From assembly GCF_000152705.1 (NCBI RefSeq), contig NZ_CH672413.1, positions 806,001 to 870,000 on the forward strand: 64,000 nt of DNA. The letters run 5' to 3'. This document shows positions 1 through 64,000 of this stretch, one piece after another (position 1 is the first letter of the stretch; every line of letters starts with the position of its first letter). This DNA comes from Janibacter sp. HTCC2649 (GTDB lineage: Bacteria > Actinomycetota > Actinomycetes > Actinomycetales > Dermatophilaceae). The position numbers were made by a program, and so were the translations under genes. A model generated the notes under the pieces. It saw nothing but the letters and a program-made list of their open reading frames with translations, ran no database searches and was not told the origin of the DNA.

Positions 1-44
1 AGCGTCGCACCGGCGGGAAGTGACTCCAGCACCTGGTCGACCAC
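1..44 (-). CDS. possible gene running off the left edge
   Basis: A GTG codon lies two bases after the rpe stop and opens a reading frame of 14 codons (V/M-V-D-Q-V-L-E-S-L-P-A-G-A-T) that leaves the window. The spacing fits translational coupling to rpe, but no Shine-Dalgarno sequence is visible and the fragment is too short to assign to a family. It could equally be noncoding sequence. Confidence 0.25.
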   Translation of the reverse strand, partial: MVDQVLESLPAGAT

Positions 45-46
45 GG

Positions 47-703
47 TCAGTGGGCGTGTGACGCTGCGAGAGAGCGGAGTTCGTTGACGGCACCGGCAGC
101 GGACTCGGCGCCGTAGACCGCCGACCCGGCCACGAACACGTCGGCCCCGGCCTCGGCGCACTTCTCGATGGTCTTGGCGGACACTCCCCCGTCGACCTGG
201 ATCCAGATCTCGCCGCCGTGGCGCTCGACGGCCTGGCGGACCTCGGCCACCTTCGCCATCTGGTCGGCCATGAAGGACTGCCCCCCGAAGCCGGGCTCGA
301 CGGTCATGACGAGCACCATGTCCAGCTCGGGCAGCAGGTCGGCGTAGGGCGCCCACGGGGTTCCGGGCTTGATCGCCATGCCGGCGCGGGCACCGGCGGC
401 GCGGAGCGCACGGGCCAGCGTCTGGGGGTCGCGCGCGGCCTCGATGTGGAACGTCACCGACTGCGCGCCGGCCTCGGCATACGCCGGAGCCCAGCGGTCG
501 GGGTCCTCGATCATGAGGTGGCAGTCGAGCGGGATCGGCGACACCTTGAGCAGCGACTCGACGATCGGCAGCCCGAGCGTGAGGTTGGGGACGAAGTGGT
601 TGTCCATGACGTCGACGTGCGCCCAGTCGGCGTTCGAGATCGCCTCGAGCTCGGACTGGAGGTTGGCGAAGTCGGCGGAGAGGATCGACGGTGAGATCTG
701 CAC
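47..703 (-). CDS. rpe: ribulose-phosphate 3-epimerase
   Basis: This 218-residue protein interconverts ribulose 5-phosphate and xylulose 5-phosphate in the cytosolic pentose phosphate pathway. It has the family's usual length and the TIM-barrel signatures: SPSILSADF at the N terminus, [10 protein letters not shown] at residues 31-40 (catalytic and metal Asp), CHLMIEDP at 61-68, [10 protein letters not shown] at about 135-144 and QVDGG at about 169-173. It starts at GTG. No Shine-Dalgarno sequence precedes it; instead TAGGCT ends exactly six bases upstream, as expected for a leaderless transcript. It lies 42 bases after rsmB on the same strand, in the usual actinobacterial order metK-priA-fmt-rsmB-rpe. 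Confidence 0.97.
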
Positions 704-709
704 GCGAGC

Positions 710-745: not shown

Positions 746-2248
746 TCAGGCCTTCTTGCGCAGCAGCGTGAAGAACATCGCGTCGGTGCCGTGCACGTGC
801 GGCCACAGCTGCACCGACGGGCCGTCGCCGAGGTCGTGGAGGACCTCGCCGGAGGCGTCGCGGAAGAACTCGCGAGCGTCGACGACGTCGATGTCGTCGC
901 GCTTCTTCAGCACGTCGCGCACCACGAAGGTCGTCTCGGCCGGGTGCGGGCTGCACGTGGCGTAGCCGACGAGTCCACCCGGAGCGACCGCATCGAGGGC
1001 ACTGCGCAAGAGGTCGCGCTGGAGCGGGCCGAGCTGGACGAGGTCGCTCGGCTGGCGACGCCACCGGGCTTCGGGTCGCCGACGCAGCGCGCCGAGACCC
1101 GTGCACGGCGCATCCACGAGAACGCGCCCGTATGCCGCCGGCTCGGCTTCTCCGACCTCGCGGCCGTCCGTGGTGCGCACCTCGATGCGCCGCCCCGCGG
1201 CCCTGGCCAGCGCGATGACGGGTTCGAGGGTGCTGCGGACGAGGTCCGCGCGGTGGTCACTGATCTCCACGGCGACGAGGTCGGCGTCGGCCTCGACGGC
1301 GAGCGCTCCGAGGACGCCGCTCTTGCCACCGGGTCCGGCGCAGAGGTCGAGCCAGCGGTGGGGCACGTCGGAGTCGACGGGGGCCATGGCGAGGGCGGCG
1401 GACAGGAGCTGCGATCCCTCGTCCTGGACCGCGGCGCGTCGGTCACGGATCGCGGCGATGGCGCCGGGCTCGCCGTGCTCGAGGACGGCCCCGAACGGTG
1501 AGGTCGCACTGGCCGTGGCACCGGCATCGACGAGCTCGTCGACCGTCGCGAGGCCGGGGCGGGCCACGAGGCTCACCTTGGCGGGGATGTTGTCGCTGTC
1601 GAGGAGCTCGCGCAGCTCGCCGTCGACGGTCTCGGCGGTGGCCCGACCCCCGGTGAGGAGGGCGCCACGCAGGGCGCTCACGACCCATTCGGGGTGCGAG
1701 TACTCCACGGCGAGCGCTGCCGTCGAGCCGCCCTCGGGAACGACCTGGGTCACCCACTCTTCGCGGGTGCGTTCGCTGATCCGGCGCATCACGGCGTTGA
1801 CGAAGCCACTGGCCCCTGCGCCGCTCACGGTGCGGGCGAGCCCGACGGTCTGGTCGGCCGCGGCGTGCGTCGGCACCCGCATGCCGAGCAGCTGGTGGGC
1901 CCCGAGCCGGAGGACGTCGAGGACGCCGCTGTCGATCGTGGATGTCGAGCGATCGGCCGCCCGCTCGATGACGGCGTCGTAGAAGCCCTGCATCCGCAGC
2001 GTCCCGAAGGCCAGCTCGGTGGCGAATGCCGCGTCGCGCGAGTCCAGTTTGTGGCGACGAATGATGGCCGGGAACTCGAGGTTCGCGTACGCGCCGTCAT
2101 CGACCGCCCGAAGGAGTGTGTATGCCGCGAGCCGTGCCGGTTCGGCGTGCTTCGCGCGCTCGCTCGGCTTCTGCAGGGAGCGCTGGCTGCCACGGGGGCC
2201 CGAGCGTCCTTGGGGGCGTCGGGGCTGGGCGGAGTCGGGGGCGGGCAT
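746..2248 (-). CDS. rsmB: 16S rRNA (cytosine-967-C5)-methyltransferase RsmB
   Basis: This 500-residue protein should methylate C967 of 16S rRNA using SAM. The first ~35 residues are basic and low complexity. A NusB-like RNA-binding domain follows (roughly 35-170), then the Rossmann methyltransferase domain with the SAM loop DLCAGPGGKSG. Both catalytic cysteines of the family are present, in DAPCTGLGALRRRPE and YATCSPHPAET. The start ATG shares its A with the fmt stop (TGATG), so translation is coupled to fmt. Length and motif order fit RsmB rather than RsmF. Confidence 0.95.
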   Translation of the reverse strand: MPAPDSAQPRRPQGRSGPRGSQRSLQKPSERAKHAEPARLAAYTLLRAVDDGAYANLEFPAIIRRHKLDSRDAAFATELAFGTLRMQGFYDAVIERAADRSTSTIDSGVLDVLRLGAHQLLGMRVPTHAAADQTVGLARTVSGAGASGFVNAVMRRISERTREEWVTQVVPEGGSTAALAVEYSHPEWVVSALRGALLTGGRATAETVDGELRELLDSDNIPAKVSLVARPGLATVDELVDAGATASATSPFGAVLEHGEPGAIAAIRDRRAAVQDEGSQLLSAALAMAPVDSDVPHRWLDLCAGPGGKSGVLGALAVEADADLVAVEISDHRADLVRSTLEPVIALARAAGRRIEVRTTDGREVGEAEPAAYGRVLVDAPCTGLGALRRRPEARWRRQPSDLVQLGPLQRDLLRSALDAVAPGGLVGYATCSPHPAETTFVVRDVLKKRDDIDVVDAREFFRDASGEVLHDLGDGPSVQLWPHVHGTDAMFFTLLRKKA

Positions 2249-3216
2249 CAGGTCAGCGTAGTGGCGCGACCGAGCACCTCACGCGCGTCGATCCGCACGC
2301 CCCGGGCCCAGTCAGCGGCCGCCATGGGCTTCTTGCCCTGGGGGCGCACCTCACCGAGAGTCACCACACCGGACGCCGTGCCGACGTGGACTGCCTTCTT
2401 GGTGACGTGGACCTCCCCCGGGCTCAACGGTTCCGAGCTCTCTCGGGCCTCGAGGGCATCAGCGCCGGCAACGACGAAGGGACCGATTCCGAGCCGCTCG
2501 CCCCGAAAGGTCGTCCACGCACCCGGCGCAGGGGTGCACCCGCGCACGTGGCGACTCACGGCATACGCCGGCGTCGTCCACGTGATCTCCGCATCGGCGG
2601 TCGTGAGCTTCGCGGCGTGCGAGACGCCTTCGGCGGGCTGGGGCACGGCGTGCAGGTCGCCGCTCTCGAGGCCGTCCATCGTCGCGACGAGCAGACCCGC
2701 GCCGGCGTGGGCCAGGCGGTCGAGAAGCACACCGGAGGTGTCGTCAGGGCGGATCGTCTCGGTCATCAGCCCGAGGACAGGTCCAGTGTCGAGGCCCGCC
2801 TCGATGACGAACGTCGTGGCACCGGTGGCCTCGTCGCCGGCCATGATGGCGCGCTGCACCGGGGCGGCTCCGCGCCAGGCCGGGAGCACCGAGAAGTGCA
2901 GGTTGATCCAGCCATGGACCGGGATGTCCAGGACGTCAGGCGGAAGGAGCGCGCCATAGGCGACCACGGGGCACGCATCGGGCGCGATCTCACGCAGCCG
3001 CTCCTGGAACTCCGGGTCACGCGGAGACACCGGCGTGAGCACCTCGATCCCACGCTCGACCGCCAGGGCCTTGACCGGCGAGGGGTGCAGGGTGCGACCG
3101 CGACCCGCACGGGCGTCGGGTCGGGTGAGGACCGCGACGACTTCGTGCGGTGAGGCCAGCAGGGCCTCGAGGGCGGGCACGGCGGTCTCGGGGGTGCCGG
3201 CGAAGACCAGCCTCAT
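2248..3216 (-). CDS. fmt: methionyl-tRNA formyltransferase
   Basis: It formylates the initiator Met-tRNA with 10-formyl-THF. The 322-residue length is typical. Visible motifs are [10 protein letters not shown] at the N terminus, HPSPVKALA, the active-site block [18 protein letters not shown] (the family's H-x-S-x-LP-x-xRG pattern) and GLDTGPVL; a C-terminal tRNA-binding domain follows. It lies between priA and rsmB, starting 36 bases after the priA stop and overlapping rsmB by one base. A TAGACT hexamer overlapping the priA stop could be its own -10. Confidence 0.97.
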
Positions 3217-3252: not shown

Positions 3253-5301
3253 CTACGAAGGGTCGCGAGGATCGAGCCGAGCGGTCAGGGGCGCCGTGTC
3301 CTTGCGCGCAGAGCGACGGGCCCGCATCGCCGCCACCTCGGCCGCGAGGGCCGGGCCGTCGGACAGCGGTGCACTGAGCACCATCCGCTCGGTCTCGGCG
3401 TCGACGGGCAACGGGCCGAGGACCCGCACGGACTCCCCCAGCCGCATCTCGGTCACGGCGGCTTGGAGCGCGGCCCGGGCACCGGTCAGCGTCGCCACTC
3501 GCGCCGTCGGGGGCAGGGAGAGTTCCGTGCGCTCGGCCAGCTCGCGGTCGGCGAACCACGCCGGGTCCCAGCGCACGAGCGCTTCGATGGCAGGGACAGT
3601 CGTGTGCGTCGGAACCCCCGCGAGCACAGCGACTCCCCCATCAGCCGCACCGCGGGTGAGTGCGACAGCGTTCATCCACCGTCGCAGCGACTCCTCGGCC
3701 GCGTCCAGGGTCGGGCGGTCGAGCAGGGCCCACGCGTCAAGGAGCAGGCAGGCGGCATACCCGCCGTCGGCAACGGGCTCGGCACCCGGCGTCGAGATCA
3801 CGAGGCGCGGCTTGGCATCGACATGGTCGACGACGGCTCCGGCGCCCGAGGTCGCCACCGGCACACCCGGGAACGCTCGCCCCAGCTCCTCGGCCGTCCG
3901 GCGCGCGCCGACAACCGACGAGCGCAACCGTGGGGACCCACAGTGCGAGCACTCGAAGCGAGTCTCGACCGCTCCGCACCAGCGACAGGTCGGCGGCTGA
4001 CCGGGACCCGCGAGTCCGAGCGGACCAGCACACACCCGACAGCGCGCCGGTCGTCGGCAGTCCTGGCACGAGAGCGAGGGCAGATAGCCGCGTCGAGGCA
4101 CCTGCACGAGCACGGGTCCGCGAGCGAGAGCGTCCTTGGCGACCTGCCAGGCCATCGACGGCAGGTGCGCTCGGGCGGCTGCGGGATCCCGGGCCAGGTC
4201 GGACCCCTCACCGGCGACGCGCACCCGGGCCACGACCTTGCGCAGCGCGGACCGGTCGACATCGAGGCCGACGACGACACCTTCCGCGCACCACTGCGCC
4301 AGCGCCGCGCTGCGGGTGAACCCAGCGCTGAGCAGCGCGGCCCCTTCGAGCTCGGCGCGGATCCGGGCCACCTGCCGCACCTGCGGGTAGGGCGCCCGCG
4401 GCTCGTCGTGAAGGTCGTCGCCGTCGTCCCACCATGCGACCAGACCGAGGTCACGCACCGGGGCGAACGCCGCCGCCCGGTTGCCGACGACAACGCGCGC
4501 GTGACCGCGCACCAGCTTCAGGTATGCCGTGTAGCGGGCCTGCGGCCCTTGGTCCGCGGTGAGGCGGACGTGGTGCCCCTTGCCGAGGCGTTCGGTGAGC
4601 GCGGCCTCGACGCGCACGACGTCGCGCGCGTCGGGAACCACGAGAATGCTGCCGCGGTCGCCGGCCAACGCTGCCGCCGCCGCGTCGGCCAGCAGGCGCG
4701 GCCAGTCCTCGGTGGGTTCGGTCGTCGGCGCTGCGAGCACCGAGGCTGCCGGACCCTCACCGGCGGTGACCCGGGAAAGGAAGGCCGGCCCCACGGCATA
4801 CCGGCTCCAGGCGGAGGACACGGAAACCGGCACGGCGTCGACGTCAGGTGCGTCGAGCGCAAGGGCCTTTTCGGCAGCGGCGTGGCGAGGCGGCACGGCA
4901 AGCCGCAGCACATCACCCACGACCCCGCCGTAGCGACGCGCCACCGCCTGGGCGGTCGCGAGCACCAGTGGGGTGAGCACCGCCTCGGGCGAGACCACCC
5001 GCCGGATGAGCGCCAGGCGGCCTTCGTGTTCGGGTTCGGCCGTGCGTGAGATGACGAAGCCGTCGAGGTCCTGTCCGGCGAACCGCACCTTGACCCGCAC
5101 GCCCGGCGAGACGTCGTCGGCCAGGACAGCGGGCACGAGGTACTCGAACGGTCGGTCCAGGTGCGCGAGCCCCGTGTCGACGAGCACGGACGCCACGGGG
5201 TCGACCTCGGCGACGGGCTCGCCCCCCGTCTTGGGTTTCGGCCGAGGCCGGGCAGCAGGCTGGATGAGCTCCAGCTGCGTCCCCTCACCCGGCTCGGTCA
5301 T
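3253..5301 (-). CDS. priA: primosomal protein N' (PriA), ATPase motifs degenerate
   Basis: This 682-residue homologue of replication-restart PriA has the N-terminal DNA-binding domain (VASVLVDTGLAHLDRPFEYLVP) and the zinc-binding insert with four CxxC pairs between roughly residues 400 and 460 (CQDC, CRVC, CRWC, CSHC). The helicase core is not intact. The usual GxTGSGKT Walker A position reads LAAPTTEPTEDW, and the DEEH box position reads AWWDDGDDLHDE, so ATP hydrolysis is unlikely. This is a known property of actinobacterial PriA. TAGTTT lies exactly six bases before the ATG, suggesting a leaderless message. Confidence 0.93.
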   Translation of the reverse strand: MTEPGEGTQLELIQPAARPRPKPKTGGEPVAEVDPVASVLVDTGLAHLDRPFEYLVPAVLADDVSPGVRVKVRFAGQDLDGFVISRTAEPEHEGRLALIRRVVSPEAVLTPLVLATAQAVARRYGGVVGDVLRLAVPPRHAAAEKALALDAPDVDAVPVSVSSAWSRYAVGPAFLSRVTAGEGPAASVLAAPTTEPTEDWPRLLADAAAAALAGDRGSILVVPDARDVVRVEAALTERLGKGHHVRLTADQGPQARYTAYLKLVRGHARVVVGNRAAAFAPVRDLGLVAWWDDGDDLHDEPRAPYPQVRQVARIRAELEGAALLSAGFTRSAALAQWCAEGVVVGLDVDRSALRKVVARVRVAGEGSDLARDPAAARAHLPSMAWQVAKDALARGPVLVQVPRRGYLPSLSCQDCRRPARCRVCAGPLGLAGPGQPPTCRWCGAVETRFECSHCGSPRLRSSVVGARRTAEELGRAFPGVPVATSGAGAVVDHVDAKPRLVISTPGAEPVADGGYAACLLLDAWALLDRPTLDAAEESLRRWMNAVALTRGAADGGVAVLAGVPTHTTVPAIEALVRWDPAWFADRELAERTELSLPPTARVATLTGARAALQAAVTEMRLGESVRVLGPLPVDAETERMVLSAPLSDGPALAAEVAAMRARRSARKDTAPLTARLDPRDPS

Positions 5302-5307
5302 GTCCCG

Positions 5308-7513: not shown

Positions 7514-8995
7514 GTGAACGACCGGCCGGAGACCTTGGCCCCTCAGAGTTCGTCACGTCCCACGATCACGTCGGCGGCGAGCTCGACATCCGGCGACCCC
7601 CTCGACCTCCTGGCCCGGGCCCAGATGCTCGCCGACCAGGTGCGCGGCGAGTCGATCCGCGAGGTGGCCGAGGCCCGTCGCGACGCCGCTCAGGTGCGGG
7701 CCCGCACCGCCGACGCCCTCTCGGAGCTCGAGAACGTCGAGGCCACCCTGGCCGCTGCCCGCGCCGAGGCTGACTCGGTCATCGAGGCAGCACGCCAAGA
7801 GGCACAGGCCCTCCTTGCCGACGCGTCAGATCAGGCCAACCTCCTGCGCGCCCGCTCGTCCAAGACCGCCGACGAAGCCCTGTCGATCGCTGAGGACGAC
7901 GCCGCAAAGCGCCTTGCCGATGCCGATCGCCGGGCCCACGAGATCCTCGAGACGGCGGAGCGCTCGAGCCGAGAGCTTCTCGACCGGACGGCGGCCGACG
8001 TTGCCACGGCTCGCTCCGCGTGGGAGGCCGACCGCGCGACCGCCGAGGTGGAGATCTCTCGCCTGCGCGAGCTGGCCGAGGTCGAGGCAGCAACGCTTCG
8101 CAGCGAAACAGACGCGTATGCCGCCGCGCACCGTGACGATGCCGAGCGTCACGTGAGTGCCCGGCTGGCCGAGATCGACCGCCTCACCTCTGATGCCTCG
8201 AGTGAGCGCGAGCAGGTCCTCCAGCAGGCACGTGATGAGGCTGCCGCGCATCTCGAGCAGATGCGCGGCGAGGCCGACGGCGTCGTGGAGTCCGCCCAGA
8301 CCCACCTGGCGTGGGCGCAGGCGACGGTTCGCGAGATCCTCGACAAGACCGAGCGTGAGACGTCGGCCCAGAGGCGTGAGGTCCACCAGGCCCTGGCCGA
8401 GCGCGCCAAGCAGAGCCGGGACCGAGCAGCGACCCTGCTCGCCTCCGCAACGGCCCGATCCACCGACCTGGGTGCCGAGGCCGCGGCCGAGTCGGACCGG
8501 ACCCGCGCCCAGGCCACGTCAGTTCTCGAGGAGGCCAGGGCCGACGCTGCGCGCACCCTCGACGACGCTCGCCGGGAGGCCGAGCGGATCACGCAGAGTG
8601 CCCGCGAACGCGCCCAGGAGGCGGAGGCCCGGGCCGAACGCCGACTGGGCGAGGCCGAGCGCGGTGCCCAGCTCGTGCGCCAGAGCGCCGCCGACGACAT
8701 CGAGCAGTTCCAACGCCAGGCACATGAGCAGCACCGGGCCGCTCGTGCCGAGATCCTGCGGATCACCGACGAGGCACAGCGCCGCTCCGACGAGATCCGC
8801 GCCGAGGCCCAGGACAGCGTGACCCGTGCCCGAGCCGAGGTGGCCGTTCTGGCTGCCCGTCGCGATGCCATCACGACCCAGCTGGGCGACCTCAGCGGCG
8901 TCATCGATGCCCTGTCCGTCGCCGACTTCCCCTCCCCTGCCCCCACCGACGAAGAACCCCTGCCACCGCCCACCCAGCACCAGGAGTCCCGATGA
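7514..8995 (+). CDS. long coiled-coil protein, possible polar scaffold
   Basis: I recognise no named family. The GTG start at 7514 gives 493 residues: about 45 residues of low-complexity head, a short LARAQMLADQVRGESI segment, then almost continuous Ala/Glu/Arg-rich heptads to near residue 450 and a Pro-rich tail. There is no signal peptide or membrane segment, so it should be cytoplasmic and filament-forming. Its stop overlaps the ATG of the next coiled-coil gene (ATGA), implying fixed co-production. The composition recalls the Streptomyces polar filament proteins Scy and FilP, but this is an analogy from architecture. It interrupts the usual coaBC-metK neighbourhood. Confidence 0.8.
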   Translation: MNDRPETLAPQSSSRPTITSAASSTSGDPLDLLARAQMLADQVRGESIREVAEARRDAAQVRARTADALSELENVEATLAAARAEADSVIEAARQEAQALLADASDQANLLRARSSKTADEALSIAEDDAAKRLADADRRAHEILETAERSSRELLDRTAADVATARSAWEADRATAEVEISRLRELAEVEAATLRSETDAYAAAHRDDAERHVSARLAEIDRLTSDASSEREQVLQQARDEAAAHLEQMRGEADGVVESAQTHLAWAQATVREILDKTERETSAQRREVHQALAERAKQSRDRAATLLASATARSTDLGAEAAAESDRTRAQATSVLEEARADAARTLDDARREAERITQSARERAQEAEARAERRLGEAERGAQLVRQSAADDIEQFQRQAHEQHRAARAEILRITDEAQRRSDEIRAEAQDSVTRARAEVAVLAARRDAITTQLGDLSGVIDALSVADFPSPAPTDEEPLPPPTQHQESR

Positions 8996-10227: not shown

Positions 10228-11538
10228 TCAGAGGAGGGTGGCGACGACGTCCCAGACGGCGTCGGACACGGCAGCCTTGGTGGCCGGGCCGACCTCGACC
10301 GACTCTTCGCTGCCGCGTCGCAGGACCGTCACGGTGTTGTCGTCGGAGCCGAAGGTCTTGCCCTCGCCCACCTCGTTGACGACGAGGACGTCGCACCCCT
10401 TGCGCTCGAGCTTGGAGCGCGCGTGGTCGAGGACCGATCCGTTCTCGTCGCCGGTCTCGGCGGCGAAGCCCACGATGACCGGGGTCGCAGAACCCCCGCG
10501 GTTCTGCACCAGCTCGGCGAGGATGTCGGGGTTGCGCACGAGGGTGATCGTCGGAGCGGAGTCGTCCTCGGTGCCGTCGACGTGGGCCTCGTGCGTCTTC
10601 TTGATCTTGGACGGCGCATAGTTCGCCGGCCGGAAGTCCGCGACGGCGGCGGCCATGACGACGACGTCGCTGTGCGCAGCCGCCTCGATGATGGCCTCAC
10701 GCATCTGCAGGGCGGTCTCGACCGGCACGACGTCGACGCCCGGGAGATCCGCAGCGGCGGAGGTCACGAGGGTCACCTGGGCACCACGTGCGGCGGCAGC
10801 GACTGCGAGGGCGTGGCCCTGCTTGCCGGAGCTGCGGTTGCCGAGGTAGCGCACCGGGTCGAGGGGTTCGCGGGTGCCACCGGCACTCACGACGACCCGC
10901 CGACCACTGAGGTCACCGCGCCGGTTCCCCTGCACCTCTGGCGCAGCGTCTGCGGAGGTGGCCGTTCCAGCGACCGCATCCGCAGACGCAACGGTGCGGG
11001 AAGCGGAGGCGGAGCGAGCCAGCTCACGCTCGCACACGGCATACAGGTCCTCGGGTTCCGGAAGGCGTCCGGGACCGGTGTCCTTGCCGGTGAGGCGACC
11101 ACTGGCGGGTGGCACGATGTGCACGCCGCGCTCGGTGAGCGTCGAGACGTTGGCCTGCGTCGCGGGGTGGTCCCACATCTCGGTGTGCATGGCGGGGGCC
11201 ATGACGACGGGACAGCGCGCGGTCAGCAGGACGTTGGTGAGCAGGTCATCGGCCTGACCGGTCGCGGCCTTGGCCAACAGGTCAGCGGTCGCCGGGGCCA
11301 CGATGACGAGGTCGGCCTCCTGACCGAGGCGCACGTGCGGCACCTCGTGAACGGCTGACCACACGTCGGTGCTCACGGGCTTGCCGGACAACGCCGCCCA
11401 CGTGGGGGCGCCGACGAAGTTCAGGGCAGCGGCCGTCGGCACGACGGTGACGTCGTGACCTGCCTCGGTGAGGAGGCGTAGGAGCGAACAGGCCTTGTAT
11501 GCCGCAATGCCGCCCGCCACACCGAGGACGACGCGCAC
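10228..11538 (-). CDS. coaBC: bifunctional CoaBC (phosphopantothenoylcysteine synthetase/decarboxylase)
   Basis: It couples 4'-phosphopantothenate to cysteine using CTP and decarboxylates the product, in coenzyme A synthesis. The 436-residue protein has the CoaC flavin half first (VAGGIAAYKACSLL, APATADLLAK, the active-site PAMHTEMWDHPATQ) and then the CoaB half (VSAGGTREPLDPVRYLGNRSSGKQG). Between them, around residues 175-205, lies an Ala/Ser/Thr-rich linker longer than usual. GTG start, seven bases after the rpoZ stop. It is the last gene of the gmk-rpoZ-coaBC group and converges on the coiled-coil pair. Confidence 0.97.
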   Translation of the reverse strand: MRVVLGVAGGIAAYKACSLLRLLTEAGHDVTVVPTAAALNFVGAPTWAALSGKPVSTDVWSAVHEVPHVRLGQEADLVIVAPATADLLAKAATGQADDLLTNVLLTARCPVVMAPAMHTEMWDHPATQANVSTLTERGVHIVPPASGRLTGKDTGPGRLPEPEDLYAVCERELARSASASRTVASADAVAGTATSADAAPEVQGNRRGDLSGRRVVVSAGGTREPLDPVRYLGNRSSGKQGHALAVAAAARGAQVTLVTSAAADLPGVDVVPVETALQMREAIIEAAAHSDVVVMAAAVADFRPANYAPSKIKKTHEAHVDGTEDDSAPTITLVRNPDILAELVQNRGGSATPVIVGFAAETGDENGSVLDHARSKLERKGCDVLVVNEVGEGKTFGSDDNTVTVLRRGSEESVEVGPATKAAVSDAVWDVVATLL

Positions 11539-11813: not shown

Positions 11814-12392
11814 TCAGTCTCGTTTCGTCTGGTGGGGGGTGCGCATCAATGATACGAGTTCGTCGGCCACACGCCGAACGTCGTCGTTCACGAGCGTCAC
11901 ATCGAACTCTTCGGCGGCAGCGAGCTCGGCCTTGGCCGTGGTCAACCGGACCTCTCGCTCCTCCTGCGACTCGGTGCCCCGCCCGACGAGCCGGCGGACC
12001 AGCTCGTCCCAGCTCGGCGGCTTGAGGAAGACGAACAGGGCCTCGGGCATGGTCTCGCGGACCTGTCGTGCACCCTGCAGGTCGATCTCGAGGAGCGCCG
12101 GTCGACCCGCGGCGATGGCCGCCTCGACCGGCCCACGGGGCGTGCCGTACTGGGCCCGACCGTGGACCGTGGCGAACTCGAGGAACTCGCCGTGGTCGAC
12201 CATGCGGCCGAACTCCTCGTTGGACACGAAGTGGTAGTGCTTGCCGTCGACCTCGGTGGGCCGTGGTTTGCGGGTCGTGGCCGAGACCGACAGCCACACG
12301 TCGGGGTGGTGCTCGCGAACGTATGCCGCGACCGTGCCCTTGCCGACCGCGGTCGGCCCGGCGAGGACGGTGAGCCTGGACGTGCCGGTCAC
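11814..12392 (-). CDS. gmk: guanylate kinase
   Basis: It phosphorylates GMP to GDP with ATP. The 192-residue protein has the P-loop GPTAVGKGT at residues 12-20, the GMP-binding [23 protein letters not shown] region (in part [11 protein letters not shown]), and [11 protein letters not shown]. The GTG start overlaps the mihF stop by four bases (GTGA), so the two are coupled. Confidence 0.97.
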
Positions 12393-15572: not shown

Positions 15573-18886
<3,314 letters not shown>

Positions 18887-21337: not shown

Positions 21338-24150
<2,813 letters not shown>

Positions 24151-39633: not shown

Positions 39634-39706
39634 CCACGCGCTCTTGCGGAACCGCCGGTCGCGGTCAGCACGTGGGCGCGGTCGGGAGCAGGCGGCATAC
39701 GCACTC

Positions 39707-52296: not shown

Positions 52297-52937
52297 GCGG
52301 GCCACCCCAGAACGGTGCGCAGTCCCGCGACGCCGGAGGTCGGGTCGTGGTGCACGGCGCGGATGCCGAGCTGGCGGGCGGCTTCGACATTGGCCTCCAC
52401 GTCGTCGACGAAGCCAACCTGCTCGGCGGGGACGTCGAGTGCCTCGAGCACGCGCTCGAAGTAGGCGAGCTCGGGCTTCCTCGCTCCCATGTCACACGAG
52501 TAGAAGGAGCGCGCGAAGACCGCGTCGTAACCGAACACCCGGCGCAGATAGGCCTTGCGGTGGTCCTGCTGGTTGGTCGCCAGCACACACGTCACTCCGG
52601 ACGCCGCCACCTCCTGGACGAAGCGCACCGCCTCCTCGTCACCGTCGACCTGCTCCCAGAGCTCGAGCAGGTCACCAACGCTCGCCGTGGCCTCGGGCCA
52701 GTCGTCGAGCACGCCGGCGAGGATGTCATGGAAGGGGGCCTCCCCGCGCAGGGCGGGAACCTCGGCGGCGAACACCGCCTCGGCGAACCCCGGGCCGCCC
52801 CAGGCGTCGAGCTTGGGAGCCCACTCGTGCCGTGGGTGCTGGATGACTCCGTCGGCGTCCCAGAGCAGGACGCTGACCGGGCGCGCCGGATCGAGTGGCC
52901 GGTCGACCACGATGTCGATGTCGGCGCGCACGGTCAT
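52293..52937 (-). CDS. HAD-superfamily hydrolase
   Basis: A 214-residue HAD phosphatase, subfamily IA-like. The nucleophile motif is LLWDADGVIQHPRHE (DxDG), motif II ATNQQD, the Lys in GARKPELAYFERV and the acid pair in VGFVDDVEANVEAAR. Substrate unknown. Its ATG is one base after the aspS stop, and its stop overlaps the RelA/SpoT-like gene, so the three genes are probably read together. Confidence 0.88.
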   Translation of the reverse strand: MTVRADIDIVVDRPLDPARPVSVLLWDADGVIQHPRHEWAPKLDAWGGPGFAEAVFAAEVPALRGEAPFHDILAGVLDDWPEATASVGDLLELWEQVDGDEEAVRFVQEVAASGVTCVLATNQQDHRKAYLRRVFGYDAVFARSFYSCDMGARKPELAYFERVLEALDVPAEQVGFVDDVEANVEAARQLGIRAVHHDPTSGVAGLRTVLGWPA

Positions 52938-54801: not shown

Positions 54802-54906
54802 GGGAGGGTCCTTCGGAACGGGGGTGGATGAACTCCGTCATCCTACGGAGTGGCCCCCGCCTCACACGAACCGCATTTCCGGTATGCCGACCGCCCACGA
54901 CACGCA

Positions 54907-55552: not shown

Positions 55553-55963
55553 CTACGTGAGTTCCACGCCGTCGCGATAGAACCAGCGACCGGCGCGATG
55601 GACGAACGTGCTCCGCTCACGCATCACGCCAGCCTGCCGCGACCGTCCTTCGCCCGAGCGCCAGTGCGCGGCGAACTCGACGACACCTTCGACGTCGCCC
55701 TCGGACGACGTCAGGATCTCGAGGCCCAGCCATTCGAGTGAGCCGTCGAGGCTCACGTCCGTGGGTCGGGTCGCCGGATGCCACGTCCGGAAGAGGTGGT
55801 CACTGTCACCGACGGCGTATGCCGTGTAGCGCGATCGCATGACCGTCACCGGAGTCGGTGGCCAGCTCTCCCCCGCCAGGTACGGGCCGCAGCAGGCGGA
55901 GAGCGTGGCTCCCTCAGGCTGACCACCGCAGGGGCAGCGTGGATCGCCGGCTGCGTTGATCAC
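55553..55963 (-). CDS. YchJ-family protein with N-terminal zinc-binding SEC-C motif
   Basis: A 136-residue protein. The N terminus CPCGG and ACCGPYL form a SEC-C-like zinc motif, followed by the family core VMRSRYTAYAVGDSDHLFRTWHPATRP and VEFAAHWR. Function is unknown. The GTG start overlaps the NUDIX stop (GTGA). Confidence 0.9.
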   Translation of the reverse strand: MINAAGDPRCPCGGQPEGATLSACCGPYLAGESWPPTPVTVMRSRYTAYAVGDSDHLFRTWHPATRPTDVSLDGSLEWLGLEILTSSEGDVEGVVEFAAHWRSGEGRSRQAGVMRERSTFVHRAGRWFYRDGVELT

Positions 55964-56600
55964 GCGCGCTCCGACCCGCCCGGCCCCTGGGCCCAGGGAG
56001 CGTCGTGGGGTCGCAGTGAGTCCCAGTTCCGCTGTCGCGCAACCTGAGCCGCGAGCACGGCAGACACGAGGATGCCGTTCTGGACGCGGCCCTCGAGCAC
56101 CGCCTCGACGGCGTCGTCGAGCGCAACCCAGGCCAACGGCATACCCTGCTCCTCCGCCTCACGAACGTGACGATCGGATTCGGGGCCGCGCGAGACGTCA
56201 CGGGTGAGGAAGACCCGGATGGCTTCGTCGAGACCGCCGGGCGAGGGGCGCAGGTCGATGAGGACGTCATAGCGGCCAGCGACGAGGTCGGCTTCTTCGT
56301 GCAGTTCGCGGGCGGCCGCTTCCCACGGCGGTTCTCCCTCGACATCGAGCAGACCCGCCGGGATCTCCCACTCGCGGGCGCGGATGGGGTGGCGGTACTG
56401 CTGGATGAGGCAGATGCGTCCGTCGTCGTCGAGAGCGACCACGGCGACGGCCCCGGGGTGCTGGACGTACTCCCGCACGTGCAGGCCGGCGTCGCCGAGG
56501 TCCACCTCGTCGCGCACGACGTCCCACACGCGGCCCTGCACCAGGACCTCGGAGCGGCGCACCGGACGAGGGTCGAACTCGTCGGCGAACCGATCCGCGG

Positions 56601-56604
<4 letters not shown>
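55960..56604 (-). CDS. NUDIX ADP-ribose pyrophosphatase
   Basis: A 214-residue NUDIX hydrolase with the box [23 protein letters not shown] (GX5EX7REUXEE), preceded by WEIPAG and followed by [13 protein letters not shown]. It fits the ADP-ribose pyrophosphatase group that accompanies pyrG in actinobacteria. The GTG start overlaps the pyrG stop (GTGA). Exact substrate not provable. Confidence 0.92.
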
Positions 56605-58310: not shown

Positions 58311-58396
58311 GGGCTTCAACACTACGTCATTGCGAGGGTCAGGCTCACCACGACTCGCAGGTCGAACACCCGATGCGTATGCCGTGCTGTCCGGAT

Positions 58397-59546: not shown

Positions 59547-61196
59547 TCATGCCCGATTCTCACCCCGACGGCGACGCCCGCGATCTCTCAACGCGCGCAT
59601 TCCTTCACGGTCGGCCACCGCCATGACCGCGAGATGGGCGCCCATCGTCACGACGGCGACGACGACTCCCGCGAGGATCGAGCCGAGCAAACCGTCCCAC
59701 GTGACCAGACGCTCCACCGTGTCGCCGACGGCGATGGCCACGGCCACGGCCACGATCGCCGAGGCAGCGGTTCGACCGCTCCCTTCGAGAGCCACGGATC
59801 CCCAGGAACGGCGCACGAGGAAGGCGAGTGCGATGGCCGAGAACGTCATCCCACACGTGGAGGCGATGCCCAGGATCCCCAGCGTCGTGCCGGCGTCGGA
59901 GCCCTCGGGAATGGTCGCCAGGGGAAGCAGCCCGGCAATGGCCCAGCCGGCGGCCACGGCCAGAGCTGCGTGGATCGGACGACCGCGCACATAGAGCGCC
60001 CGGGTGAGCAGCGCAGCGACGCTGAAGCCCACGAGACCGGGGGCATAGGCGGCCAGGGCCCCGGGGAGTGCCTCGAGGGCCGCCTGCGCACGGCCACCGG
60101 ATCCACGGTCAAGGGCAAGGAAGAAGCGGCCCACGGGACGGGACACGGTGATGAGGACGGCGGCTGCACCGGACGTGAGCAACAGGATTCCACCGATGCT
60201 GCGCGCCAAGGTCCCAGCGGCCGTCGAGTCGTCGGACTCCCCCTCCTTCGCGCTCTCCGCGTGGGCCATGGCAGGAAAGGCGGTCGTGGCGATCGGAACG
60301 GCGAGAACGGCATACGGAAGGAGGTAGACCGCCTGGACGTAGGCATAGATGTTGACCACGCCGATGTCGATGGTGCGCGGGGAGTGCGTGAGCCAGAGAG
60401 TCAGGAACACCGCGGCCTGCTGCGCCGCAAGCGCCACCACCCCTGCGCCCGCCAGCCCCGCGGCACGGCGACCGAGATCGCCGGGGAACGACAGGGTGGG
60501 TCGGAAGCTGATTCCCGCCCGCACGGCCGGCACGAACAAGGGAATGCTCAGCACCAGAACCCCGAGGGTTGTGCCACCGGCAAGGATCCACACTGCGTCC
60601 GAGGGCACCGCGTCCGCGGCGACGCGTCCGCTGATCCGCTGCCCGTAGGCCACGTAGGCAGCCATCACCACAACGCTCGACAGCAAAGGCGCCAGGGCCG
60701 CGGCGAGGAACCGCCGGTGAGCCTGGAGCATGCCGGCAAGCACGACACCGATGCCATAGAGCGCGACCTGGGGGGCGAAGATGCGCAGCATCGTCGCCCC
60801 GAGATCCACGCTCCCGGGCTCCTTGCGGTCGTCGAGCAGCAGGTCACTGAGCCACGGCGCTGCGATGAAGACGATGGCGGCGAGCGGCACCAGGACGACG
60901 ACGGCCCAGGTCAACAGGGCGGACCCGGCGCGGTCGGCGTCCTCACGACGGCCCATGCCGAGCTGCCCTGCGACGAGCGGCACCGCGATGGCAGCGAGCG
61001 CGCCACCGGCCGCCACTTCGTAGACGACATTGGGCAGGGTGTTGATCGTCTGGTAGGTGTCGCCGACGGGGGTCGCCCCCACGCTGCTGGAGAAGACGAA
61101 CGTGCGCACGACTCCGGCGATGCGTGCAAGAAGGGTGGCGACGGCGACGACCAACGCCGCCCGGGCCAGCGACTGGCCCACGGACCCGGTGGTCAC
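59547..61196 (-). CDS. murJ: MurJ/MviN-family lipid II flippase
   Basis: A 549-residue membrane protein with about 14 helices of the MOP exporter superfamily. The N terminus LARIAGVVRTFVFSSSVGATPVGDTYQTINTLPNVVYEV has the family's conserved Arg and NxxP region. It may flip lipid II, or act on the product of the neighbouring PNPT-like transferase. No kinase or FHA extension as in mycobacterial MviN. GTG start overlaps the upstream stop (GTGA). Confidence 0.87.
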   Translation of the reverse strand: MTTGSVGQSLARAALVVAVATLLARIAGVVRTFVFSSSVGATPVGDTYQTINTLPNVVYEVAAGGALAAIAVPLVAGQLGMGRREDADRAGSALLTWAVVVLVPLAAIVFIAAPWLSDLLLDDRKEPGSVDLGATMLRIFAPQVALYGIGVVLAGMLQAHRRFLAAALAPLLSSVVVMAAYVAYGQRISGRVAADAVPSDAVWILAGGTTLGVLVLSIPLFVPAVRAGISFRPTLSFPGDLGRRAAGLAGAGVVALAAQQAAVFLTLWLTHSPRTIDIGVVNIYAYVQAVYLLPYAVLAVPIATTAFPAMAHAESAKEGESDDSTAAGTLARSIGGILLLTSGAAAVLITVSRPVGRFFLALDRGSGGRAQAALEALPGALAAYAPGLVGFSVAALLTRALYVRGRPIHAALAVAAGWAIAGLLPLATIPEGSDAGTTLGILGIASTCGMTFSAIALAFLVRRSWGSVALEGSGRTAASAIVAVAVAIAVGDTVERLVTWDGLLGSILAGVVVAVVTMGAHLAVMAVADREGMRALRDRGRRRRGENRA

Positions 61197-62005
61197 GGGC
61201 GACCCCAGGAGTCGACCCGTCGCAGGACCGGGTTGCCCTCGATGACCTTGCTGAAGGAGACCTTCTCGGACAGGACAGTGAGAACGGCGGTGACGGCCAG
61301 GAGGGCGAAGCGACCACGCGGCCCGGTGCGCTCGACGAGGGCGAGGCCCACCATGGCCCCGGCCGCGTTCGCGCCCGTGTCGCCGAGCATCGACTCGCCA
61401 CGAAGGTCATGGGGCAGCGTGCCCACTGCCGCACCAAGTGCTGCCGCTGCCGTGGCCGCACCGTGAGCCCCCAGGGGAAGGAGCAGGGTGCCGGCTCCGA
61501 GGGACACGACCTTGAGCGTGCGTCCGGGCCGAAGGTCGAAGAGGTTGGCAAGGTTGGCCGATCCAGCGATGGCCGCACCCCCGATGAGGGTGGTGAGCAA
61601 CCTGCGGTCCCGACCCCGGTCGGCGAGCACCGAAGCAGCCAGCCCGGTGGCCGCGAGTCCCACGATCTTGATCGCGCCTGTCGTCACCTCGCCGCGGGCC
61701 AGCGCACCGAGGTGACCCTTGAGGCCCTTGCTCGAAGCATCACCCGCGAGGTCGTCCAGGGCACCGAAGGCTCCGGCGCCCAGGCCTGCCACCACGCCTG
61801 CGGCCGAGGGGGCACCTGCCGCAGCCGCACCGGCAGCGGCGGCCGCGGCATACACGGGTCCCTCGAGGAGGGTGACCGTCCGGCCTGCATGGTTCGTGCG
61901 GTCCCACGGCGCGCGAAGGTGCGCGGGGACGTGCCGGCGAGCGAGCATCGCCCCACCTGCCGCTGCGGCCGCCACGACGGCACCCACGAGCGGTCGTCGG
62001 CTCAT
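61193..62005 (-). CDS. small PNPT (MraY/WecA-like) transferase
   Basis: A 270-residue membrane protein, short for MraY or WecA. It has FGALDDLAGD (Asp-Asp), KGLKGHLGALARGEVTTGAIK, NLANLFDLRPGRTLK and the MLGDTGANAAGA loop, all positions expected of polyprenyl-phosphate sugar-1-phosphate transferases. The substrate is unknown. It overlaps steB and murJ by four bases each, so it is made together with them. Confidence 0.85.
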   Translation of the reverse strand: MSRRPLVGAVVAAAAAGGAMLARRHVPAHLRAPWDRTNHAGRTVTLLEGPVYAAAAAAGAAAAGAPSAAGVVAGLGAGAFGALDDLAGDASSKGLKGHLGALARGEVTTGAIKIVGLAATGLAASVLADRGRDRRLLTTLIGGAAIAGSANLANLFDLRPGRTLKVVSLGAGTLLLPLGAHGAATAAAALGAAVGTLPHDLRGESMLGDTGANAAGAMVGLALVERTGPRGRFALLAVTAVLTVLSEKVSFSKVIEGNPVLRRVDSWGRP

Positions 62006-62955
62006 GGCGCCGGGATCGGCGGGTAGCCGGCAGAGACGCCGTCGCCGAGGCCGTACTGTCCGACTCCCCCGGCCAGCTGCTGCACCAGGGCATAGACCAC
62101 GCTGACCTGGCCGAGGGACAGGCTCACGTCGTCGACGGTGGAGAGCGCTCGGGCCGTGGTCGCGTCGCCGCGCGCCGCACGCACCACGGAGGCGGCACCG
62201 GTGAAGCCGCTCACGCCGACGTCCTCGGTGAGAACGGCCCCCTTGCCCGCACGATCGAGCGCGACGGAAAGGGAGACCAGACGCGCTGCCTGACGGTCGC
62301 GGTCGGCCACGACATCACCCTTGACCGGCGCGGAGACGATCACTGCCGTGGTGGCCCGCACCAGATCCGCGGTCTCGACGTCGATGAGCTTGGCGCCCGT
62401 CAGTGCGTCGAGCGCAGCCTTGCCGGAATCGTTGGCTGCGGCGCCATCGGCGGCCACGAGCGAGGTGGCGAGCACGTCGTCGAGCGGGCTCGAACCTGCG
62501 TCAGCCGCTTCGGGCAGGCCCAGGGCCTTGCGCTGTTCGGTCGCCAGCTGCGTCTGCTTCGTGGTCGCCTCGACGTCCTTGGGAACCCACTCCTCCTTGA
62601 CCGTCGTGCGGGACACGACGGTCGCGCCGGATGCAGTCAGGGTCTCGGTCACGGCCTTGACGTCATCGGCGTCGGCGTCCGGGAGCAGGACGAGCGCGAC
62701 CTTGACGTCCGTGAGTGTTCCGCCGACCAGTCGGGTGCGCGCCTCATCGGTGAAGTCGTCGCGCGTGACCCCAGCCTTGCGGGCGGCCTCGAGCTCGGTG
62801 CGAAGGGCCACTCGGTCCTCGCGGAGCTGGGTGACCTCCTGCGTGAGGGTCTCGCCGATCGTGCCCTTGAGCGGGCCCGCGCCGAGCACGATCCCGACCG
62901 CGAGGGCCATGAAGATCGAGACGATCGAGACGAGGTGATAGCGAAAGTCGATCAC
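62002..62955 (-). CDS. steB: SteB/MctB-family protein
   Basis: A 317-residue protein with a single N-terminal membrane helix (LVSIVSIFMALAVGIVLGAG), a coiled coil (about 40-70) and an outward-facing alpha/beta domain. It matches the family of Corynebacterium SteB, involved in envelope integrity and division with SteA. The mycobacterial homologue was named MctB for copper homeostasis, so function is debated. GTG start overlaps the steA stop (GTGA). Confidence 0.9.
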   Translation of the reverse strand: MIDFRYHLVSIVSIFMALAVGIVLGAGPLKGTIGETLTQEVTQLREDRVALRTELEAARKAGVTRDDFTDEARTRLVGGTLTDVKVALVLLPDADADDVKAVTETLTASGATVVSRTTVKEEWVPKDVEATTKQTQLATEQRKALGLPEAADAGSSPLDDVLATSLVAADGAAANDSGKAALDALTGAKLIDVETADLVRATTAVIVSAPVKGDVVADRDRQAARLVSLSVALDRAGKGAVLTEDVGVSGFTGAASVVRAARGDATTARALSTVDDVSLSLGQVSVVYALVQQLAGGVGQYGLGDGVSAGYPPIPAP

Positions 62956-64000
62956 GTGAAGATTCCTCCGAGAGCGGACCAGAGATCGTCGAGGCGGGCG
63001 CCGAGCACTTGCAACAGCACCTTGCCTCCGGGGGTGGCCCAGAGGGCTGCGGCCAGCGCACCCAGGCCCACGAAGACCATGAGCACGAGCCACGTCCCGG
63101 AGATGCGCGAGCGATAGAGACGGCTCACACCCTTGGCATCGATGAGCTTGCCCCCGACGCGCAACCGGGTGAGGAAGGTGCTCGCCATGCCCGATCGACC
63201 CTTGTCGAGGAACTCGATGAGGGTCGCGTGGGTGCCGACCGCGACGATGAGCTGGGCGCCCTTGTCGTCGGCGAGCAACATCGCGACATCCTCGCTCGTG
63301 CCCGTGGCGGGGAAGACGACCGGCTCGACACCGAGGTCGCGGACCCGCTCCAGGCCGGGCGCGCGACCGTCACGGTAGGCGTGGACGACCACCTCTGCCC
63401 CACACCGAAGCGTGGCGTCCGAGACGGAGTCCATGTCGCCGACGATGAGGTCGGGCTTGAGGCGGGCCTCAACGATGGCGTCGGCTCCCCCGTCAACGCC
63501 GATGAGGATGGGCTTGTACTCGCGGATGTAGGACCGAAGCATCTTCAGGTCCTCCTTGTAGTGGTACCCGCGGACGACGATGAGGACGTGGCGCCCGTCG
63601 AGGTTGGTGCGGATGTCCGGGACGCCGACACCGTCGAGGAGCAGGGCACGCTCCTGCTTGAGGTATTCCATCGTGTTGGCTGCGAAGGCCTCGAGCTGGA
63701 CGTTGAGTCCGGCTCTCGCCTCGGCCATGGAGGCCATCACCGACGTGTCGTCGAGGGCCTGACCGGTCGCGATCACCGTGTCACCGGACATGAGGTTGTT
63801 GCCGTCGAGGTGGACGAGCGTGCCGTCGGTCAGCTCCATCGCCTCGTCGCCGACGGCGTCAAGGAGGGGAATGCCTGCCGCGAGCAGGATCTCCGGACCG
63901 AGGTTCGGGTAGCGCCCCGAGATCGACGTCGCAGCGTTGACGACGGCGATGGGACGGCAGGCGACCAGGGCTTCGGCGCTCACCCGGTCGATGTCGACGT
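62952..64000 (-). CDS. steA: SteA, putative cytokinetic ring protein (5' end outside the window)
   Basis: About 349 codons are visible; the frame continues beyond the window edge (ending V-D-I-D-R-V-S-A-E-A-L-V-A), so the start is not seen. The visible part has ISGRYPNLGPEILLAAGIPLLD, a TPK-like fold with VDGGADAIVEARLKPDLIVGDMDSVSD, and a C-terminal membrane helix (TWLVLMVFVGLGALAAALW). In Corynebacterium SteA and SteB act together at the septum and influence RipA. Usual length is ~390. Confidence 0.93.
   Translation of the reverse strand, partial: VDIDRVSAEALVACRPIAVVNAATSISGRYPNLGPEILLAAGIPLLDAVGDEAMELTDGTLVHLDGNNLMSGDTVIATGQALDDTSVMASMAEARAGLNVQLEAFAANTMEYLKQERALLLDGVGVPDIRTNLDGRHVLIVVRGYHYKEDLKMLRSYIREYKPILIGVDGGADAIVEARLKPDLIVGDMDSVSDATLRCGAEVVVHAYRDGRAPGLERVRDLGVEPVVFPATGTSEDVAMLLADDKGAQLIVAVGTHATLIEFLDKGRSGMASTFLTRLRVGGKLIDAKGVSRLYRSRISGTWLVLMVFVGLGALAAALWATPGGKVLLQVLGARLDDLWSALGGIFT

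Follow-up and report, generated by a model that had tools for sequence, protein, structure and literature searches.

An abundant octamer of Knoellia and related genera as a candidate DNA-uptake sequence of Dermatophilaceae

The window, i.e., the whole 64-kb stretch of DNA that was analysed, belongs to a genome of the genus Knoellia (Dermatophilaceae), presumably a soil actinobacterium, and carries 42 exact copies of the octamer GTATGCCG, 19 on the plus and 23 on the minus strand. This word ranks first among all 8-mers of the window; shuffling of the sequence gave a mean of 0.73 and a maximum of 4 copies (100 shuffles), and a third-order Markov model predicts 2.0. An earlier, sequence-only reading had put the number at about 43, far above expectation and near-equally divided between the strands, which agrees with our counts. 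According to gene calling, 36 of the 42 copies are genic, encoding Tyr-Ala, Ala-Tyr, Met-Pro or Gly-Ile, and six lie outside genes.

In genes of the minus strand, copies on the minus strand read Tyr-Ala at 475-482 (gene 47-703; TAT GCC), 2559-2566 (2248-3216), 3753-3760 and 4794-4801 (3253-5301), 11037-11044 (10228-11538), 31361-31368 (30924-31787), 37706-37713 (36825-37886), 43461-43468 (42718-43533), 46800-46807 (alaS, 45208-47901), 48262-48269 and 48343-48350 (48071-49366), 52233-52240 (51277-52305), 60308-60315 (59547-61196) and 61846-61853 (61193-61987), and Met-Pro at 17369-17376 (15569-18886), 19614-19621 (18888-20048), 22342-22349 (21334-22380) and 56137-56144 (55960-56604). Copies on the plus strand read Ala-Tyr in such genes, at 1130-1137 (GCA TAC) and 2120-2127 (both in 746-2248), 4522-4529 (3253-5301), 11497-11504 (10228-11538), 12321-12328 (11814-12392), 16799-16806 (15569-18886), 18942-18949 (18888-20048), 23821-23828 (23371-24150), 31203-31210 (30924-31787), 36843-36850 (36825-37886), 38434-38441 (38398-39621), 48845-48852 (48071-49366) and 51853-51860 (51277-52305). 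Three copies fall in plus-strand frames: 8116-8123 (plus) as Tyr-Ala in a called ORF at 7514-8995, 51003-51010 (minus) as Ala-Tyr in a called ORF at 50375-51154, and 32687-32694 (minus) as Gly-Ile-Pro with the rare codon ATA in gene 31920-33497. The copies at 30172-30179 (plus), 39693-39700 (minus) and 54882-54889 (plus) are located between genes; those at 28859-28866 (minus), 55817-55824 (plus) and 58377-58384 (plus) are outside genes according to a second gene calling.

The remaining two copies form an inverted pair within a gene for a type IV leader (prepilin) peptidase of the A24 family (42020-42718, minus strand; PF01478, E 5.4e-10). They encode parts of the peptide AAYAALPAYL, as CCG-GCA-TAC at 42485-42492 (plus, Ala-Tyr) and GCG-TAT-GCC at 42499-42506 (minus, Tyr-Ala), just as the sequence-only reading had described. 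The same reading had recognised the Tyr-Ala, Ala-Tyr and Met-Pro frames, the Gly-Ile-Pro copy with ATA (placed at about 32691) and the three copies between genes, all of which we recovered. Each position that it quoted carries a copy, two of them shifted by one base (30172 for 30173 and 39693 for 39694). The Val-Cys-Arg frame that it also listed was not seen in the window and accounts for 3 of the 364 genic copies in the genome sample described below.

Genome-wide (4.24 Mb), we counted 2,982 copies of GTATGCCG vs. 59 of the reversed control, divided 1,486:1,496 between the strands. A synonymous-codon shuffle (200 shuffles), which the sequence-only reading had named as a check, was applied to 634 called genes in 724 kb of this genome. 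Results showed 364 coding copies vs. 32.0 ± 5.5 expected (maximum 47), and GTATGCCG was the top octamer against this null, a generous one since codons belonging to the word itself took part in the shuffling. The excess therefore stands, and it supports the earlier claim of a signal at the DNA level beyond codon needs. In the same sample the density was 0.575/kb in genes vs. 1.383/kb between genes; 364 of 497 copies (73%) were genic, genes making up 87% of the sequence. Of the rare codons in the sampled genes, 32 of 63 ATA and 159 of 673 TAT lie inside the octamer. No orientation bias was observed: the sampled copies were split 252:245 between strands (chi2 11.6 on 33 df), and the best two-arc split left only 53% of copies co-oriented, in line with the claim of the earlier reading that the word lacks strand bias and is unlike KOPS or Chi. 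Density was even across the sampled stretches outside a mobile island (8-19 copies per 20 kb).

Intergenic GTATGCCG...CGGCATAC pairs, capable of forming hairpins, occurred 16 times in the 724 kb vs. twice in the opposite arrangement, and 15 of the 16 lie at most 100 bases from the stop codon of a gene that is oriented towards the pair. Genomes with the related word GGATGCCG showed no excess of hairpin-type pairs (8 vs. 9 same-direction pairs). We also detected a 3′ extension in the Knoellia genome of the window, where 42 of 496 sites have GCTC at +12, against 4.2 expected, including 33 of 443 sites without a neighbouring copy. The extension was not common to the relatives: other GTATGCCG genomes had GCTC at +12 in 5 of 268 sites (expected 2.3), Ornithinimicrobium-group loci in 0 of 59 and GGATGCCG genomes in 2 of 249. 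Of 160 aligned site comparisons between relatives, 111 retained the exact octamer, against 38 expected. The word is scarce in the recently acquired DNA that we examined, namely one mobile island (5 copies in 80 kb), two phage-like insertions of 40 kb each in word-rich hosts (3 and 2 copies) and the Tetrasphaera phage TJE1 (2 copies in 49 kb).

Extending the counts to relatives, a further check named by the sequence-only reading, revealed at least 390 copies of GTATGCCG in 107 of 186 Dermatophilaceae genomes, a level that no genome reached among 361 sampled from the order's other families. Other members of the family use different words. GGATGCCG reaches 3,619-4,480 copies in five genomes and is mixed with GTATGCCG in two, some relatives carry a degenerate mixture of GTATG[ACG]CG, and all 19 genomes of two genera have 797-1,939 copies of an unrelated word, CGAAGGGGG, of which the remaining 167 genomes have at most 80. 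These dialects cluster on a ComEC tree, following phylogeny. By a tally over separate counts, all three words are lacking in bulk from 55 of the 186 genomes. One of these is Janibacter massiliensis, with 36 copies of CGAAGGGGG, which is placed in a separate genus in the taxonomy used. Scans of 100 kb in five word-poor genomes gave no word of similar copy number.

As regards the competence genes, ComEC was present in 161 of 163 genomes, and the genome of the window encodes ComEA, ComEC and a Tad/Flp locus, together with an A24 peptidase gene away from the Tad locus. The peptidase at 42020-42718 is a plausible candidate for the processing enzyme of the DNA-uptake pilus proposed below. ComEC, ComEA and secretion ATPases were equally present in word-poor genomes; a broken comEC did not track absence of the word among the genomes compared, and ComEA and ComEC showed no residue convergence with the GGATGCCG lineages. 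PilM (PilM_2), a marker of type IVa pili, was matched in 6 of 163 genomes and unmatched in 157, including that of the window, and a receptor of the Proteobacterial type is therefore unlikely. No receptor for the octamer was identified among the components compared (ComEA, ComEC, secretion ATPases and PilM), and we found no uptake or competence data on these organisms in the literature.

We consider it probable that GTATGCCG is the core of a DNA-uptake (self-recognition) sequence (DUS) of Dermatophilaceae, read by a transformation system of Tad/Flp pilus, ComEA and ComEC. Cells of the family would take up DNA through these components, while a putative surface protein would bind the octamer and favour fragments from kin; in Knoellia, the recognition site may comprise the octamer plus a degenerate 3′ extension, about GTATGCCG-TGTGCTCACCTTCCG. 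Because tagged fragments would be imported and recombined more often, copies would accumulate chromosome-wide and be kept at synonymous and intergenic sites. Intergenic inverted pairs may double as transcription terminators, and DNA of recent acquisition would be without the tag. Drift or replacement of receptor specificity would result in rewriting of the genome from GTATGCCG to GGATGCCG, to GTATG[ACG]CG or to the unrelated CGAAGGGGG, and loss of specificity in a lineage would result in loss of the word. With less assurance, we lean towards a broader view, in which this would be the first Gram-positive DNA-uptake-sequence system and the first from a family other than Neisseriaceae and Pasteurellaceae. 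Sequence-selective Tad/Flp-pilus transformation would extend across much of Dermatophilaceae, whole genomes would have been rewritten several times, including a GTATGCCG/CGAAGGGGG switch in the Janibacter/Marihabitans clade, and genetic barriers would have formed between related genera as a result.

Other explanations were weighed against an uptake sequence. In a HIP1-like reading, which we think unlikely, a DNA methyltransferase or a methylation-linked repair process would act on the octamer and so drive or maintain it. HIP1 reaches a similar abundance and is swapped for alternate words in some lineages with matching methyltransferases (PMC4390886), so replacement of dialects alone does not exclude such a role, and octamers with a single mismatch at positions 5-8 are rare, as judged against an inflated null. 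On the other hand, GTATGCCG, GGATGCCG and CGAAGGGGG are non-palindromic. Two methyltransferase families were searched: PF01555 had no match in the genome of the window; PF07669 was unmatched there and in a second Knoellia (G075, 3,277 copies), and by inspection it does not track the word. The analogy with HIP1 drawn by the sequence-only reading is apt in part only: the signal is an abundant octamer at the DNA level, but the word is no palindrome and the two families searched have no match in this genome. Hairpin pairs are not predicted by methylation, and their location after genes, the one-letter dialects following phylogeny and the scarcity in foreign DNA appear to fit a DUS better.

Chi and KOPS are also octamers abundant across genomes, and a site of this kind would direct recombination (RecBCD/AdnAB) or FtsK. 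Yet GTATGCCG shows neither orientation bias relative to replication nor polarity to the terminus, and such sites would not be expected to form inverted hairpin pairs or to be replaced, by one letter or in full, from one related genus to another, which makes this role very improbable. Like the HIP1-like reading, the Chi and KOPS readings fit less well than an uptake sequence. Binding by a nucleoid-associated or architectural protein, or a transcription terminator module spread by selection alone, would suit the even density outside the island, the 3′ extended consensus in the genome of the window, which suggests a protein footprint, and the hairpins located after genes. However, most sampled copies are genic, only 16 hairpin pairs occur in 724 kb, and word replacement across genera is predicted by neither, so we rate this pair of options as distinctly improbable. 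Intergenic hairpins look like REP units, but genic copies have in common the octamer and weak flanks only, intergenic flanks are diverse and the octamer by itself is too short for a transposing unit; a mobile REP/BIME-like family copied round the genome is scarcely credible. A codon, dipeptide or base-composition artefact, in favour of which there is some frame preference (Tyr-Ala, Ala-Tyr) and nothing further, was rejected on the codon shuffle (32 vs. 364), the intergenic enrichment and the 361 other-family genomes.

To our knowledge, self-tag words for DNA uptake have so far been reported in two Gram-negative families. If an uptake sequence operates in Dermatophilaceae, it would be a third, unrelated and Gram-positive case, with relatives that have a different, a mixed or no word, in which the origin, spread, switching and loss of such words could be tested directly, as could the receptor that a Tad pilus uses. 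The octamer may also serve as a simple marker for recently acquired DNA and help in the transformation of environmental actinobacteria, among them the Tetrasphaera group, described as polyphosphate accumulators of wastewater plants (PMC9123174). Whether or not the uptake reading is correct, an octamer that is enriched 50-fold and takes in half of the sampled ATA codons calls for an explanation.

Known DUS and uptake signal sequence (USS) systems have dialects, sometimes two in one genome, hairpin terminators and no orientation bias; in Haemophilus, 65% of copies lie in ORFs, which cover about 86% of the genome (PMC3630211, PMC12616744, PMC2346458), close to the 73% and 87% of our sample. Like the DUS of Neisseriaceae, the candidate uptake word GTATGCCG has thousands of copies, no orientation bias and hairpin pairs, with few-letter dialects by phylogeny, two per genome in cases, and some members without any (PMC3630211, PMC12616744, PMC2346458). 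It differs in its unrelated sequence, in its Gram-positive hosts, most of them with PilM unmatched, and in the full switch to CGAAGGGGG in one clade. With the USS of Pasteurellaceae it has in common a short core with an extended consensus, higher density outside genes and hairpins (PMC12616744, PMC2346458), but sequence and host phylum are unrelated and the extension is seen in the Knoellia genome only. The cores of DUS and USS are given as CTG and GCGG, respectively (PMC12616744), and GTATGCCG/CGGCATAC contains neither. HIP1 of cyanobacteria and its replacements are likewise extremely abundant octamers, with other words in some lineages, and are palindromes tied to matching methyltransferases (PMC4390886), whereas GTATGCCG is non-palindromic and has no link to PF01555 or PF07669. 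In place of the type IVa pilus of DUS and USS systems, which has a minor pilin as receptor, we found a Tad/Flp locus, with PilM_2 in 6 of 163 genomes. The main text of the Micrococcus luteus study, unlike our proposal, does not use the terms 'uptake sequence' or 'sequence-specific' (PMC4322843). Transformation via a Flp/Tad pilus is nevertheless described there, in an organism that has ComEA, ComEC and Tad loci and whose one prepilin peptidase gene lies outside tad (PMC4322843), and the Knoellia genome resembles it in having ComEA, ComEC and a Tad locus, with an A24 peptidase gene away from that locus.

The octamer GTATGCCG (other strand, CGGCATAC) was the top over-represented 8-mer of the window, where 42 exact copies were found vs. 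a mean of 0.73 and a maximum of 4 in 100 dinucleotide-preserving shuffles. Across the whole genome (4,235,068 bases, 99.97% complete) the two strands carried 1,486 and 1,496 copies, and the reversed-letter control numbered 59. Codon effects were analyzed in the window and 33 further stretches (724 kb of 4.24 Mb, with six small contigs, L124-L129, and stretches L269-L272 set aside), for which 634 genes were called by a simple codon score and not from curated annotation. Of the sampled copies, 364 were genic, 126 lay between genes and 7 straddled a boundary, which corresponds to densities of 1.383/kb between genes vs. 0.575/kb within them. Shuffling of synonymous codons within each gene gave 32.0 ± 5.5 copies (maximum 47 in 200 shuffles) vs. 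the 364 observed, and when octamers were ranked against this null GTATGCCG came first with a large lead, its runners-up overlapping it. About half of the ATA codons (32/63) and a quarter of the TAT codons (159/673) in the sampled genes were located within the octamer. The abundance is not a codon effect; the claim of the sequence-only reading that the excess goes beyond codon needs was borne out.

Between genes of the own-genome sample we observed 16 inverted pairs arranged as GTATGCCG-stem-loop-stem-CGGCATAC within 60 bases, vs. 2 in the opposite arrangement. Their folding energies ranged from -26 to -51 kcal/mol. For 15 of the 16, a gene oriented toward the pair has its stop codon at most 100 bases away, and A- and T-rich tracts could be seen by eye beside several of the pairs. 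No Rfam match was obtained in the window at gathering thresholds. Around its copies in this genome the octamer has a degenerate 3′ extension, TGTGCTCACCTTCCG. GCTC at +12 was present at 42 of 496 sites vs. 4.2 expected; the signal was stronger between genes (22/133) than in coding copies (20/364; background 0.7–0.9%) and held for solitary copies with no neighbor within 60 bases (33/443). This extension suggests that a putative protein reads about 20 bases at the octamer. It was not common to the other sampled genomes, in which it occurred at 5/268, 0/59 (Ornithinimicrobium-group loci) and 2/249 sites. A one-mismatch depletion at octamer positions 5–8, which could have pointed to repair or conversion, was given no weight, since the shuffle spreads motif codons and thereby inflates the null.

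Own copies were compared with orthologous DNA at 16 loci. The exact octamer was retained in 111 of 160 aligned comparisons vs. 38 expected from octamers of equal A+T content, these comparisons not being independent because the same own sites are reused across the loci. For the nine Knoellia loci alone, retention reached 78/100 vs. about 27; the AlaS of Knoellia sp. Soil729 (L059) shares 93% identity with that of the window. We assign the source organism to Knoellia, in the family Dermatophilaceae. The octamer is scarce in foreign DNA, as seen in one island, two insertions of word-rich hosts and one phage. The four 20-kb segments of the island (C1:150,001-230,000) contained 0, 1, 2 and 2 copies; at average density they would together hold 56. 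Its first 40 kb encode a secretion ATPase and a TraG-type coupling protein, and we read the genes surrounding these as Tad-like and conjugation-like. Two 40-kb phage-like insertions in Ornithinimicrobium-group hosts (0.32 and 0.43 copies/kb) held 3 and 2 octamers, and Tetrasphaera phage TJE1 2 in 49 kb, although the G+C of this phage is just 58%. Two more phage-like insertions (0 and 1 copies) are uninformative, as their hosts are word-poor.

Among 186 genomes of the family, 107 carried at least 390 copies of the octamer, 14 carried 130–389 and 65 fewer than 130. In a sample of 361 genomes drawn from the order's other families none exceeded 180, which is near the reversed control. Word-rich genomes include Knoellia koreensis, Pedococcus bigeumensis, Flexivirga, Tetrasphaera australiensis, Intrasporangium oryzae, Ornithinimicrobium tianjinense and Serinicoccus kebangsaanensis; Janibacter, Marihabitans, Luteipulveratus, Piscicoccus and Phycicoccus sonneratiae are poor in GTATGCCG. 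Some of the poor genomes carry another word. GGATGCCG was present in 3,619–4,480 copies in five genomes (G017, G018, G034, G035, and G178) and, mixed genomes excepted, in 241–1,336 elsewhere; hairpins with the altered letters occur in its genomes as well, but the excess of one orientation found in the own genome was not seen there. Two genomes of the genus of G034 hold both GTATGCCG and GGATGCCG (2,195 + 1,217 and 2,099 + 1,189 copies); GTATGCCG, GTATGACG and GTATGGCG occur together in Flexivirga (G033) and G167. A second genome-wide word, CGAAGGGGG, is unrelated to GTATGCCG and occasionally forms an inverted pair. It was found on both strands (loci L021, L025, L137, L138, L142, L148, and L209) with 797–1,939 copies in 16/16 genomes of the genus of Janibacter hoylei (G052-G067) and 3/3 of that of Marihabitans asiaticum (G090-G092), vs. 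at most 80 copies in the remaining 167 family genomes. Janibacter massiliensis, placed in a separate genus in the taxonomy used, has neither GTATGCCG nor CGAAGGGGG. By subtraction of classes, 55 of the 186 genomes carry none of the words in bulk. A maximum-likelihood ComEC tree (43 genomes) placed the CGAAGGGGG group in one clade and the group with the GTATG[ACG]CG mixture in another (support 100/99 each). GGATGCCG required two changes, GTATGCCG seven and the word-poor label six; in total, nine changes were needed vs. 21 with shuffled labels.

We scanned 100 kb of each of five word-poor genomes (G184, G160, G082, G083, and G089). The top score of the five came from TAGGTGCGGA in G184 (15 copies vs. 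0.2 expected), which was rejected since all 15 cluster as a repeat in one 20-kb stretch (L211). Also rejected were AACTCGCAA of G160, a paired repeat with 8 copies, and the weak CGATGCGG of G082 (75 vs. 27). The 10-mer GACGCCGTAC/GTACGGCGTC may be a rarer word proper to G083, as it occurred on both strands and in all five stretches (L140, L222-L225), with 20 copies vs. 1.6 expected in 100 kb; G085, the sister genome, has GTATGCCG. The window (1-64000) itself contains two repeats unrelated to the octamer, CTCCCCCG/CGGGGGAG (17 copies vs. 2.4 expected) and a string around GCCGAGGCTGAGGTCCAG whose 12-mers occur 5–6 times. In L188 (G000 C1:4000001-4020000), CTTCTTGGC/GCCAAGAAG reached 15 copies vs. 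0.5 expected, and our guess is an Ala-Lys-rich repeat protein.

As regards competence machinery, ComEC was detected in 161 of 163 family genomes of at least 90% completeness. In the own genome comEA (SLBB and helix-hairpin-helix) adjoins comEC, a Tad locus at C1:3.86 Mb encodes a Flp pilin, a TadE/G-like protein, a T2SSE ATPase and a T2SSF protein, and a prepilin peptidase gene lies within the window. In another actinobacterium, Micrococcus luteus, transformation is reported to need Flp/Tad genes together with ComEA/ComEC, and the sole prepilin peptidase gene to be outside the tad loci (PMC4322843). Both ComEA and ComEC were present at 41/41 inspected loci, with one comEC frame-split (G083) and one comEA split (G022). 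The T2SSE ATPase was found in 163/163 genomes (162 above cut-off), the Eco57I methyltransferase in 106/163 and PilM, the type IVa marker, in 6/163. By inspection none of these proteins separated word-rich from word-poor genomes, and in the genomes and loci examined the octamer was not tracked by ComEC, ComEA, PilM, secretion ATPases or one methyltransferase family. Many relatives have the same set of competence genes and yet lack the octamer. Residue convergence with the GGATGCCG genomes was likewise rejected (ComEA 0 and ComEC 2 columns vs. null means of 2.1 and 6.1).

Damaged comEC genes were observed in word-rich and word-poor genomes alike. In four genomes of three genera the Competence domain is interrupted at about one place by phage-like insertions of 28–44 kb: the word-poor G068 (C1:2176730-2204467, L264-L265) and G159 (C1:850663-894550, L261-L263), and the GTATGCCG-rich G125 (C46:68541-108976, L258-L260) and G134 (C1:1161212-1201313, L255-L257). 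In G134 a Pfam match confirmed a serine recombinase at one insertion end, and G125 and G068 have a similar look. G067, of the CGAAGGGGG type, may be a fifth case, the first third of its comEC not being found near the remainder. Apparent frame splits, for which sequencing error is possible, were seen in the word-poor G083 (L140, L266) and G094 (L238) and the GTATGCCG-rich G145 (L245). The gene lacks about 150 profile positions in G110 (GTATGCCG-rich) and is apparently cut by contig ends in G062, G050 and G113. Prophages able to turn transformation off would be in keeping with a family in which the process matters.

A Chi or KOPS site is disfavoured by the lack of orientation bias: strands were even in the 724-kb sample (252:245), and co-orientation never exceeded 53% in the sampled stretches for any split into two arcs of at least 8 stretches. 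The sequence-only reading, which had argued against both roles for want of strand bias, agrees with these tests. No origin in chromosome architecture, a repeat family or base composition accounts for both the dialects and the codon result. The best rival, a HIP1-like role in methylation, draws on the replacement of HIPs, too, by other words (PMC4390886); however, HIPs are palindromes, and two methyltransferase families searched had no match in the own genome. We regard this role as unlikely.

None of the matches listed from the open-licence literature (subscription papers and preprints lying outside it) reported these words or any actinobacterial uptake sequence. The octamer is not classed with the DNA uptake sequence (DUS) of Neisseriaceae or the uptake signal sequence (USS) of Pasteurellaceae, because it is unrelated to them in sequence, PilM as the marker of type IVa pili is missing from the own genome, and function is argued here by analogy. 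Abundance without strand bias, a higher density between genes, hairpins, an extended consensus, dialects that follow phylogeny and mix in some genomes, and a low frequency in foreign DNA all match DUS and USS, whose published anatomy combines these traits (PMC3630211, PMC12616744, PMC2346458). Because of this likeness, we consider a role of the octamer in DNA uptake or self-recognition probable.
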